64,000 nucleotides of DNA from Modicisalibacter luteus DSM 23508 (GTDB taxonomy: Bacteria; Pseudomonadota; Gammaproteobacteria; Pseudomonadales; Halomonadaceae). The DNA lies in the NCBI RefSeq assembly GCF_000378505.1, contig NZ_KB899990.1, positions 1 to 64,000 of the forward strand. The letters run 5' to 3'. This document shows positions 61,674 to 63,736 of the stretch, piece after piece (positions within the stretch are counted from its first letter, which is position 1; the number at the start of each line of letters is the position of its first letter). The notes beneath the pieces are model-generated. The model was not told where the DNA came from. It searched no databases and was given only the letters and a program-made list of their open reading frames with translations. The translations under genes and the position numbers were made by a program.

Positions 61674-61691
61674 TGTCGTTGATCTCTTACA
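61674..61691 (+). promoter_or_regulatory. Candidate GacA-type upstream site 2 of sRNA 1
   Basis: TGTCGT-TGATCT-CTTACA has the exact 18-base geometry of the GacA upstream activating sequence (TGTAAG-N6-CTTACA); the right half is perfect and the left keeps TGT. Its centre is about 55 bases before the presumed RNA start, where such sites act in Pseudomonas rsm genes. Confidence 0.55.
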
Positions 61692-61736
61692 AACACAACC
61701 AACATGGATTACTGCGTAGTTGGCTTTAGTCTGCCA

Positions 61737-61883
61737 CGCTTAACATCATTGGGCAGGAGGCCCAATCAAGGAAGACGAGCACATGGAAGGCTCAAGCGCC
61801 AAGGATGCACGGGCAGGATGCCTGTGAAGCAAGCAAGGATACGCAGCGCTATGCAGCCCGGCCCATGTGGCCGGGCTGTTTTT
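61737..61883 (+). ncRNA. CsrB/RsmY/RsmZ-like sRNA 1 (CsrA/RsmA-sequestering)
   Basis: A roughly 147-base RNA with six GGA motifs (61756, 61770, 61785, 61803, 61816 and 61837). Two are displayed in ideal hairpin loops: ATTGGGC-AGGAG-GCCCAAT (61748-61766) and CACGGGC-AGGAT-GCCTGTG (61808-61826). A third lies in a GAGC/GCTC hairpin (61777-61793). It ends in the terminator CAGCCCGGCC-CATGT-GGCCGGGCTG plus five T. Repeated A(N)GGA in loops is the hallmark of RNAs that titrate CsrA/RsmA. A TTTAGT -10 candidate lies at 61725-61730. The 5' end is estimated. Confidence 0.8.
61854..61883 (+). terminator. Intrinsic terminator of sRNA 1
   Basis: Ten-base arms CAGCCCGGCC and GGCCGGGCTG around CATGT are followed by TTTTT. 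It is a strong factor-independent terminator. Confidence 0.93.
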
Positions 61884-62139
61884 ATGGATTGCCGGAGCCA
61901 AGGCGCTTACGAGAAGTAACGGACTATTTCTCTGATCAACGTTACCTGCCTTGCTAGCCGGTTAGTGACGCCTCGAGCAACTCGTGCCTGTGTTTAGGTT
62001 TCGTCCAATTCAGACGCGTCACGTGACTATGCCCTGCCATGTGCAGGGCTTTTTCGTATGCTGCAATAAACGGCGCTACCGACCATCCAATCATAGTCAG
62101 GTTCAGTGACGCTCTATGGCTGGGAGCAGAATCGCTTGG
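61884..62139 (+). other. Region downstream of sRNA 1 without a recognised gene
   Basis: These 256 bases hold no credible open frame. The only clear element is a second terminator at 62031-62054, so a short unidentified transcript may end there. Three scattered GGA triplets are not in obvious loops. Confidence 0.4.
62031..62054 (+). terminator. Orphan intrinsic terminator
   Basis: Arms GCCCTGC and GCAGGGC around CATGT, then five T residues. No gene or RNA was assigned to it. It shares the CATGT loop with the sRNA 1 terminator. Confidence 0.85.
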
Positions 62140-62385
62140 CTAGCGCCCTGTACACCACTGCGTGTAGGTGCCATTCATGTCAGGCCTACCCAGTCGTTGC
62201 CGAATATGAATATCCAGTATCTCTTCCCTATACCACTGCTCCACATCCGCACAGTACTGTTTTTGTTGCGGGGTCAGGTGGCCTGGGTCTACCGGCAACG
62301 CTTTCTTCTCGGGAAAGGTCAGCGCTGTTGTACTAGCGACTATGGCTACGCCGCACGTCGCGATGAGGGTGAACGATTTATGCAT
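62140..62385 (-). CDS. Small exported protein with cysteines
   Basis: Product of 81 residues with a signal peptide (MHKSFTLIATCGVAIVASTTA) and a mature part with two cysteines, in QYCADVEQWY and YTQWCTGR, which could form a disulfide. The pattern YC-V-W ... G-P-D-xx-G-Y-xxx-C resembles small exported proteins found near prophage or accessory genes, but no firm family can be named. AGGGA lies before the ATG. Confidence 0.6.
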   Translation of the reverse strand: MHKSFTLIATCGVAIVASTTALTFPEKKALPVDPGHLTPQQKQYCADVEQWYREEILDIHIRQRLGRPDMNGTYTQWCTGR

Positions 62386-62494
62386 ATGCTATCCCTGCAT
62401 GCATCCGTTTCTTTGAAAATTAACTCATTCACAAGAAATTACAAGAAGGGCTACATACTGCAGTGATAACAGCAAGAAGGCAGGACTAGTCAGA

Positions 62495-62520
62495 TAGCCC
62501 GACTCACTGTGGTCGGGCTA
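62495..62520 (-). terminator. Hairpin after the 85-residue gene
   Basis: Arms TAGCCCGAC and GTCGGGCTA around an eight-base loop lie 20 bases past the stop at 62541 on the minus strand. No T-run follows. Confidence 0.6.
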
Positions 62521-62540
62521 CTCTCAGGGGCATTCGCGCT

Positions 62541-62798
62541 TCAGCTTGGCCGCCATTCATCGAAGTCAGCGCCAATGTCGGTCATGCGCTGCCTGGCAAG
62601 CTCTAACTTGGATAAGAACGTCTCCTTGTCCGTATAAATGTCGCGGTGCAGGTCATTCACATCCACGAGATGACCATTAATATCGACCGCGACCTTGAGA
62701 AGGTCCCCGTCATCAACTTCCTTCGTCTTGCACTCGTTCGGAGCAAAAGCCTCCTGAGCGATACGTGCAGCCTCACCAATGGTCAATTTTTCAGTCAT
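62541..62798 (-). CDS. Small acidic hypothetical protein (85 residues)
   Basis: Product starting MTEKLTIGEAARIAQEAFAP and ending DFDEWRPS; acidic, probably cytoplasmic and mostly helical. GGAGAGTAC gives a good ribosome site for the ATG at 62798; an ATG at 62810 lacks one. No family recognised. It lies between the two Csr/Rsm-like RNAs. Confidence 0.65.
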   Translation of the reverse strand: MTEKLTIGEAARIAQEAFAPNECKTKEVDDGDLLKVAVDINGHLVDVNDLHRDIYTDKETFLSKLELARQRMTDIGADFDEWRPS

Positions 62799-63240
62799 CG
62801 TACTCTCCATTCACGAACTCGAACGCAAGTCCGTTGCGTCCTGCTCTCCAACGTAGGGCACCAATCGCCTAGCCGCCATAACATGAATGAAGGCTTGCAT
62901 CTAATAGCCGATCGGTTTGGCTTACGATGCTGAGCGGGAAGGGGAGCCCTCGTAACAGGTACTTGTTGACGCCATGATTGGGAGAGGTAAACGATATGAG
63001 CGCAAGAAACTATTACTTCAAAGGCAGTAAAGAGCTTTGTGGCGTCCGCTGACAAGAGCAGGGCAAGATTGGCTATCTCTACGGCGGTTAAGGCGGGCTA
63101 TTCCTCGAAGCTCGGCATGATCGACTTTCAAGCGGTAGCTGTACAGGTATCGGCTGGCAAGAGACGTTAGCCACAAACCAGTCCACCAGCTACGTCATGA
63201 TGAACGGTAGATTTAGCAATTGTGAAGTTAGCACGAGACC
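62799..63240 (+). other. Non-coding or decayed region with an 18-codon frame
   Basis: No intact gene is seen in these 442 bases. At 62996-63052 a frame MSARNYYFKGSKELCGVR has an excellent GGGAGAGG ribosome site but stops at a TGA. The same frame reopens (QEQGKIGYLYGG, a TAA, then GGLFLEARHDRLSSG...), which looks like a small gene broken by two stop codons. This is a suggestion only. Confidence 0.35.
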
Positions 63241-63280
63241 AAATAAAACAAACCCGGCCTTAGAGGGGGCTAAGGCCGGG
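63241..63280 (-). terminator. Intrinsic terminator of sRNA 2
   Basis: Perfect 11-base arms CCCGGCCTTAG and CTAAGGCCGGG with a six-base loop are followed on the minus strand by TTTGTTTTATTT. It is a strong factor-independent terminator for minus-strand transcription. Confidence 0.93.
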
Positions 63281-63425
63281 CCACGCAGTCGAGGGAGACT
63301 GCTAAAGGGTAAGCCGTTCTGGGATCCTTGGCGTCAACGGCATCCTGCCTCGCTTCGCCTACCTTCCCAAGCCTCGGTCTTCCTGACCGCGCTCTTCCTG
63401 AACTGGCAGCCATCCTTGGCCGCTG
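63241..63425 (-). ncRNA. CsrB/RsmY/RsmZ-like sRNA 2 (CsrA/RsmA-sequestering)
   Basis: A minus-strand RNA of about 160-185 bases with five GGA motifs (opposite TCC at 63413, 63396, 63381, 63343 and 63325), all in A(A/C)-GGA contexts such as AAGGAT and CAGGAA. Hairpins expose them: GCGGCCA-AGGA-TGGCTGC (63406-63423, one G-U pair), CGGTC-AGGAA-GACCG (63375-63389) and GGC-AGGAT-GCC (63339-63349). A T-rich intrinsic terminator ends it. A further AAGGAT motif at about 63453-63458 may lie before the start. The 5' end is estimated. Confidence 0.8.
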
Positions 63426-63736
63426 CTTACCGTACTCAACAGATTAGGAGAGACATCCTTTGTAGGCAAACTCTGTCATGTTAAAAAAAGTTACGCGACC
63501 TGGCAGAAGCTCCTTTCTTGGAACATTCCGGCTTCCTCGGGTCGATTCGGGAACCTTTCTCTCCGTATCGTCTTTCGAATGGCCATCTTGAGCGGTTGGC
63601 TCTATTCGACCTGACCGATAGCGCCGGACGCGGCGAATGGCCCGATGGTTCTCTCTCGTTCGCCTGAGAGTTGGAAAGAGATTGGCGCTTGCCTATGGGC
63701 GCTTCCAGCCAACGCTGCCCTGGCAACCGCCACTCG
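63426..63736 (-). other. Unassigned structured region; weak glycine-riboswitch-like motifs
   Basis: These 311 bases between the permease gene and sRNA 2 hold no convincing gene. On the minus strand GCGCCCATAGGCAAG (63688-63702) and ACTCTCAGGCG (63661-63671) recall the CCGAAGGGGCAA and CUCUCAGGCAAA cores of a glycine aptamer, and TCAGGTCGAATAGAGCC (63598-63614) loosely recalls a second. The remaining conserved parts are not clear and no glycine gene lies downstream, so the identity is doubtful. Confidence 0.2.
63461..63478 (-). promoter_or_regulatory. Candidate GacA-type upstream site of sRNA 2
   Basis: Read on the plus strand, TGTAGG-CAAACT-CTGTCA matches the GacA palindrome TGTAAG-N6-CTTACA at 9 of 12 positions with the exact 18-base geometry. 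It lies 45-60 bases before the estimated RNA start on the minus strand. Confidence 0.4.

Follow-up and report, generated by a model that had tools for sequence, protein, structure and literature searches.

Within a 64,000-nt window of the Modicisalibacter luteus DSM 23508 genome (Halomonadaceae; contig NZ_KB899990.1, positions 1 to 64,000) lie two small RNA genes, RNA1 and RNA2, that represent two classes of CsrB/Rsm-like RNAs (class 1 and class 2, respectively). Very probably, both are GGA-exposing transcripts that titrate CsrA, and the two classes have been multiplied to about 24 genes that together form a multi-input sponge system. The pair in the window is merely two of these scattered copies in the genome (4.53 Mb; G000 in the locus labels below, where C denotes a contig and G001 to G148 denote relatives). 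Judged from their sequences, RNA1 and RNA2 look like two real, newly seen RNA families. The two genes are laid out as follows.

61748–61885, + strand: RNA1, CsrB/Rsm-like candidate sponge RNA of class 1 with six GGA (R1 covariance model, scan, covariation, predicted hairpins)
61748–61766, 61777–61793 and 61808–61826, + strand: hairpins 1, 2 and 3 of RNA1 (predicted structure)
61853–61883, + strand: intrinsic terminator of RNA1 (terminator prediction)
63434–63245, − strand: RNA2, CsrB/Rsm-like candidate sponge RNA of class 2 with six GGA (R2 covariance model, folding)
63282–63245, − strand: intrinsic terminator of RNA2 (terminator prediction)

The genes are convergent, with about 1.36 kb between their 3′ ends, and each stands alone with an intrinsic terminator and a putative promoter. 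The initial annotation had proposed two GGA-rich RNAs in opposite orientation about 1.4 kb apart, and a scan of 12,772 overlapping 140-nt segments on both strands (thresholds fixed after the RNAs were known) returned only those two places. At least six GGA were present in 155 segments, and in five of these 155 at least five GGA were open (unpaired probability ≥0.8); the five form two clusters, 61741–61890 (+) and 63281–63440 (−), i.e., RNA1 and RNA2. An extra terminator test in the scan was passed at RNA1 alone. It is the modelled exposure of the GGA motifs that is unusual, with a mean unpaired probability of 0.94 in RNA1 versus 0.57 in dinucleotide shuffles, and of 0.83 versus 0.44 in RNA2 (folding z-scores −2.76 and −2.68). 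The five or six GGA and strong terminator originally claimed for each RNA are borne out, whereas for RNA1 the claim that most motifs sit in such loops is about half right, the predicted structure placing three in hairpin loops and three in linkers; in RNA2, one GGA is predicted to be paired. Exposed GGA in hairpin loops and linkers, as expected of the Csr/Rsm class, are thus predicted for both RNAs.

Covariation argues for the RNA1 structure. We drew hairpins 1–3 and the terminator (26 pairs) by hand on one sequence of an alignment of 33 RNA1 rows. Two-sided changes were present in 17 of the 26 pairs, versus 9.9 in shuffles, and in 58 cells versus 21.5; none of 500 shuffles, which ignore relatedness, was as high on either measure. 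Sliding the partners by 1–3 columns cut the paired cells from 85% to 29–53%. Hairpin 1 is poorly aligned in places and is 65% paired. For RNA2, a long-range helix (GGTAAGC...GCTTACC) is predicted to join the 5′ and 3′ ends around the GGA hairpins, and 6 of 38 pairs have two-sided changes (11 sequences).

Neither RNA can be filed in an existing Csr/Rsm family of Rfam. At gathering cut-offs, Rfam 15 gave no match in the whole window; at a loose threshold, the best match at RNA2 was rsmX (RF02144; 25.7 bits versus a cut-off of 56) and that at RNA1 was RsmY (RF00195; 19.8 bits versus 57). PrrB_RsmZ (RF00166) gave no match in G000, and exceeded its cut-off in 3 of 115 genomes of the order, none of them Halomonadaceae. 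Because Rfam families are reached below cut-off only, the two RNAs look Csr/Rsm-like yet cannot be assigned to those families, and with the hairpins conserved this agrees with the original proposal insofar as the RNAs are CsrB/RsmY/RsmZ-like and of a sort that Rfam does not capture in this lineage. We used our own covariance models, R1 (33 RNA1 sequences) and R2 (11 RNA2 sequences), which both include the window RNAs and whose E-values are too optimistic, as the models were calibrated short. Each gave one strong match in the window, R1 with 139.1 bits at RNA1 (other matches ≤15.9 bits) and R2 with 143.8 bits over 63305–63434 (others ≤13.7 bits), in both cases to a sequence that is part of the model.

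DNA similarity alone, with the best five candidates per genome scored, places at least four further copies of RNA1 and at least four of RNA2 in G000. The models gave 23 R1 and 7 R2 matches, from which we kept 17 RNA1 genes (≥51.8 bits) and 7 RNA2 genes (≥74 bits), about 24 in all; two long RNAs that R1 matched twice (C32:6697+6836 and C7:174072+174144) count once each. Three R1 matches were rejected, one that covers a terminator only (C8:58559), one with three GGA that is probably coding (C10:170683) and one that is the 3′ part of an RNA2 gene (C1:101889). A divergent Csr-like sequence (C5:254068; 21.4 bits, 10 GGA in the match and 13 in the extended stretch) was not counted, as background matches of R1 in the window go up to 15.9 bits. 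Pairwise identities are 39–91% among RNA1 copies and 56–92% among RNA2 copies, so the copies are not assembly duplicates; the closest sister of the window RNA2 is the copy on C14 (92% identical). Four RNA1 relatives are longer (207–265 nt, 10–15 GGA; C32:6697-6961, C7:174072-174293, C24:15834-16040 and C1:416262-416470), with the appearance of added hairpin units.

Among 151 Halomonadaceae genomes (R1 at E ≤1e-6, with the best 21 candidates per genome scored, so that large counts are lower bounds, and with the possibility that a long RNA yields two matches), RNA1 is present in 77, covering 11 of 24 genera. The R1 matches number at least 19 in G000, at least 14 in G114, at least 12 in G122 and at least 9 in G014; one-contig genomes have at least 8 (G023) and at least 7 (G148). 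Matching genomes of genus g20 have at least 5–11, those of g2, g4, g11 and g13 mostly one to three, and 3 of the 14 genomes of the window's genus gave no R1 match. RNA2 is more restricted, being found in 13 of the 151 genomes, 11 of them in the window's genus. An order-wide sample of 293 genomes (strict filters, best 11 candidates per genome) gave RNA1 in nine, all Halomonadaceae. Exact matches to the RNA1 core pattern, which may be due to chance, also occur in the unrelated L122, L131 (Phycisphaerales) and L126 (Zixibacteria).

The promoter regions contain two recurring elements, listed here for the window genes (positions relative to the first base of the model).

61674–61691, + strand: GacA/UvrY-type site TGTCGTTGATCTCTTACA, 9/12, −74 to −57 (consensus score; same position in other RNA1 copies)
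61700–61713, + strand: Crp/Fnr-geometry palindrome CAACATGGATTAC, a degenerate yTAAC-N4-GTTAr, 9/13, −48 to −35, centre −41.5
61735–61740, + strand: candidate −10 box CACGCT of RNA1, weak (inferred; other copies have better −10-like boxes at −12 to −7)
63441–63469, − strand: sigma70-like promoter of RNA2, with −35 TTGCCT (63464–63469), 17 nt, and −10 TAATCT (63441–63446)

Transcription of RNA1 would start near 61748. The RNA2 promoter was not picked up by a generic promoter scan. Against the GacA/UvrY consensus TGTAAG-N6-CTTACA, scores of at least 9/12 are expected 0.037 times, and of at least 8 0.23 times, per 150 nt. In the class 1 set (18 upstream regions, from the 17 genes and C5a), a GacA/UvrY-like site is found in 14: the score is at least 9/12 at −72 to −74 in nine and 8 at the same place in two more, and a perfect site lies at −90 to −94 upstream of C12, C1b and C4b. 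None of the six scored class 2 upstream regions has one. CsrA sponges that are not under GacA control are known, so the site does not decide membership of the class. Of the 18 class 1 regions, 15 have a palindrome whose first base lies between −44 and −48; in the six class 2 regions scored it lies between −73 and −78, the window RNA2 being the one exception. A palindrome that starts at −48 is centred at −41.5, the class II distance of Crp/Fnr activators, and a 5-4-5 dyad at a class II or class I distance is thus present in most class 1 regions and, except for the window RNA2, in class 2.

Both elements extend beyond the genus to different degrees. Outside the genus, 33 loci were examined for the best match of TAAC or FNR type, which starts at −48/−49 in 25, at −53/−54 in five and elsewhere in three; G107, G095 and G127 have the variant TTGAT-N4-ATAAA, and G055 has TTGATGCGGATCAA, the FNR box, at about −46. 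GacA-type sites occur near the usual places in g1, g15, g23 and at three of six loci of g20, all many-copy genera, and none was found near those places at the g2, g4, g11 and g13 loci (one to eleven per genus); in G001 we disregarded a site at −26 that scores 9.

The expected partners of a Csr/Rsm system, CsrA/RsmA and GacA/UvrY, are encoded in G000, with three CsrA genes and a GacA equivalog above the NCBIfam cut-off. On C12, an RNA1 gene is divergent from csrA, a second csrA lies 400 bp behind, and a perfect GacA-type site is found between (G000:C12:20917-22068, L158); this arrangement is syntenic in G122:C23 and G114:C28. Crp/Fnr genes (PF13545) also accompany the RNAs. In 11 of the 14 genomes of the genus (G038, G051 and G073, which have no clear RNA1, were omitted), 22 of 122 such genes, a total that includes weak PF13545 matches, lie within 1 kb of an RNA1 match versus 0.56 expected under uniform placement; in G000 alone the count is 4 of 19 versus 0.15. 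For this statistic, overlapping and antisense matches were removed by hand, three RNA2-like rows stay (G083, G110, G118), and for 3 of the 22 neighbours the sole basis is an RNA match of 23–31 bits. The 22 are not independent because orthologous neighbours were counted once per genome.

The 13 Crp/Fnr–RNA1 pairs of G000, G114 and G122 are convergent (6), codirectional (5) or divergent (2). All 13 RNA-adjacent proteins have the recognition helix [VI]Hx[NS]R, versus 10 of the 22 non-adjacent ones. ETxSR is the recognition helix type of FNR, and among the 35 proteins sampled no protein of this type is RNA-adjacent. The nearest solved relatives of the one protein searched are FixK2 and FNR, and none of four proteins checked reached an NCBIfam cut-off. 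In a tree of the 35 proteins, which come from three genomes, the RNA-adjacent ones are clustered (5 changes versus 10.7 when shuffled). They nevertheless fall into more than one clade, on long branches, and the rows G114_C25 and G114_C32b, at least, derive from frames that were mistranslated; we therefore claim no single origin for them. We infer that the RNA-adjacent proteins may bind the palindrome. G000 also has six closely related Crp/Fnr paralogues (C7, C17, C20, C14, C3, C29), several of them near contig ends.

Other genes recur near these RNAs as well. Genes for KGG-repeat small proteins (stress, LEA-like) are found near RNA1 in G000 (C4:49827-50240 and C1:192546-192899, by Pfam) and G122 (C20:386683, by similarity), and SRAP (SOS-response associated peptidase) genes in RNA1 clusters of G000 (C1:193473-194129, by Pfam), G114 (C30:4304 and 7214) and G122 (C22:48489; the latter two genomes by similarity). 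A selenocysteine tRNA gene (L101:3344-3435, G000:C1) lies less than 1 kb from an RNA2-class gene that keeps its place in both G114 and G122.

One RNA2 gene is carried by a prophage. The copy on C20 (L154, G000:C20:29090-29288) is inside a lambda-like prophage in which 7 of 10 proteins match PHROGs, including portal, terminase, endolysin, replication initiation and repressor proteins. A related prophage of a second species encodes an RNA2-class gene at the matching phage position (L148, G038:C6:80952-81084), and IMG/VR includes both prophage stretches among its viral contigs, where the RNA score is the same. Two further viral contigs, L204 and L205, match the RNA1 pattern, with 16.6 and 9.6 bits there, which we take as chance.

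Among known systems, RsmX/RsmY/RsmZ of Pseudomonas and Azotobacter are similar in size, in GGA placed in loops and linkers, in the terminator, in the GacA-type upstream site and in having several copies. Unlike them, the RNAs described here fall below Rfam cut-offs, number about 24 in two classes, have a Crp/Fnr-geometry box at −41.5 with Crp/Fnr genes alongside, and include a class without a GacA site that is carried by a prophage. CsrB and CsrC of enterics and vibrios share the sponge design. CsrB is longer, with more GGA. As far as the available portions of the texts cited from here on go, the UvrY site footprinted at csrB of E. coli is TGTGAGAGATCTCTTACA (PMC4682653), which has the right 11 bases of the window RNA1 site, GATCTCTTACA, in common. 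Azotobacter vinelandii has rsmZ1-7 and rsmY (PMC4824345), Pseudomonas syringae up to seven Rsm RNAs (PMC7911923), and vibrios two to four csrB, usually two to three copies, with four in V. tasmaniensis (PMC6262261). Pf1-3 of Pseudoalteromonas are likewise Csr RNAs of a marine non-model gammaproteobacterium, with three copies (PMC11882849). The copy number here is several times that usually described, the excerpts naming at most seven or eight elsewhere, and no comparably high number was among the matches listed in the open-licence literature. Crp influences Csr RNAs in Salmonella (CsrC; PMC7591399) and Yersinia (PMC3523269), so the Crp part of the wiring has precedent.

Temperate phages are known to carry small RNA genes, and in this respect the C20 copy resembles other phage-encoded small RNAs; no phage-borne CsrA sponge was evident among the matches listed in the open-licence literature, and a review among them (PMC12197685) shows no occurrence of CsrA as listed. 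For Halomonas, GacS, GacA and LadS have been mentioned (PMC7366521) and CsrA of H. hydrothermalis has been modelled (PMC12889724). Csr/Rsm RNAs of Halomonas were absent from the matches listed in open-licence full texts, and the portions available of PMC5568370 and PMC13414033 name none.

Several observations weigh against reading these genes as a CsrA sponge system. The number of GGA is ordinary, six in each RNA versus a mononucleotide-shuffle mean of 4.1 for both (maximum 8 for RNA1 and 10 for RNA2), and GGA exposure in the copies C32a, C9 and C4b is barely above shuffles. Rfam, run on 17 stretches that hold 22 of the 24 copies, returned two tRNAs and no Csr/Rsm match at gathering. There is no GacA-type site near the usual places in C11, C24a, C17b and C5a and no palindrome at the usual place in C24a, C4b and C5a; the window RNA2 has no GacA site and has lost the class 2 palindrome near −78. 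Palindrome scores are 9–11/13, and many copies have a score of 9, for which the expectation is 0.16 per 150 nt; the argument therefore lies in the fixed position and not in the score. A strict promoter pattern found three places in the genome, all RNA1 genes, and a backwards control pattern also found three. Outside the genus, a Crp/Fnr relative was near only 1 of 33 RNA1 loci (flanks of 1.5–3 kb).

Part of this evidence would also fit a genome in which most of the extra copies are decaying duplicates and few are functional. In some copies the boxes are poor or the fold is weak, and R1 matches vary from 0 to 19 among the 14 genomes of the genus (large counts being lower bounds). Several loci are nonetheless syntenic with intact RNAs, their neighbours mostly 75–95% identical (e.g., C12, C11, C4a/b and C1d), and we regard widespread decay as unlikely.

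It is more doubtful still that the transcripts are small RNAs that act otherwise, by base pairing or Shine-Dalgarno mimicry, with CsrA not their target. GGA is the core of the ribosome-binding site as well, which would suit such an action. Against it, AGGA hairpin loops alternate with linkers as in Rsm RNAs, GacA-type sites lie upstream, for each RNA the best weak Rfam match is to a member of the Csr/Rsm clan, and one copy is divergent from csrA.

The initial annotation further suggested that the convergent genes bracket two small protein genes in a compact locus controlling CsrA/RsmA. The convergent arrangement and the two open reading frames are present, one of the latter being a doubtful gene.

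62541–62810, − strand: 89-aa open reading frame without a Pfam family, outside the RNA genes, with orthologues beside RNA1 in two congeners
62140–62385, − strand: 81-aa open reading frame without a Pfam family, a doubtful gene

A short reading frame just downstream of RNA2 (62996–63240; ATG at 62996, early stop) resembles a decayed gene. Two congeners have a locus syntenic to that of RNA1 (G114:C19, G122:C20), where the genes around it for the 89-aa, a 110-aa and a GGDEF protein are kept with the RNA at 80–88% identity; no orthologue of the 81-aa frame was found at these loci. RNA2 was not found there either, its matches lying elsewhere in both genomes, and the compact two-RNA locus is therefore not supported; synteny holds for RNA1 and fails for the pair. 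The window RNA2 is a local newcomer, or was lost at the congeners' locus. Although the genes are convergent and 1.4 kb apart in G000, and C5 also holds two Csr-like RNAs about 3 kb apart, it is thus very improbable that the pair forms one regulatory locus. Equally hard to credit is a mobile or repeat element of the MITE or REP-like kind that is non-coding and does not act as a sponge. It would account for the many dispersed copies and the RNA2 copy within a prophage, but copies down to 39–59% identity still have the hairpins, the GGA loops, the terminator and, at a fixed distance, the promoter elements, several copies are syntenic between species, plasmid records gave no match for either RNA, and phage records gave none for RNA1 (RNA2 was not searched there).

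If the RNAs are CsrA sponges, CsrA dimers would be bound at the GGA loops and CsrA-repressed mRNAs thereby released. Two inputs would act on class 1 promoters, with GacA/UvrY at about −65 and, at −41.5, probably a regulator of the Crp/Fnr family, such that high GacA-P together with an active Crp/Fnr-type regulator would give more class 1 RNA. Class 2 would depend on a stronger sigma70-like promoter without a GacA site, with the palindrome further upstream, at about −72, in most copies. Duplication with changes of promoter and neighbour could have turned one sponge into many separately controlled sponges for one CsrA pool, to which many signals would add through copies with different promoters. 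A class 2 copy would have been picked up by temperate phages, presumably from the host, and a phage may benefit if its copy relieves CsrA control. A bolder version is possible, and we offer it tentatively: one CsrA pool would be read by about two dozen sponges, some of which would each have a one-component sensor of Crp/Fnr type (with the unusual VHxNR/VHxSR recognition helix) to themselves, each environmental signal adding a dose of sponge, and temperate phages would use a same-class sponge of their own to seize the host CsrA.

Why a bacterium should have several sibling Csr RNAs has been posed as an open question (PMC6262261, in the portion available). A genus with a couple to about 24 copies, with readable promoters and neighbours, makes this question testable, as dose versus signal integration. 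If the sponge reading is true, two RNA families would be added to the catalogue, Crp/Fnr-type regulators would be suggested to feed directly into the Csr system of halophiles, and the RNA2 gene of the prophages would be a candidate phage-borne CsrA sponge.

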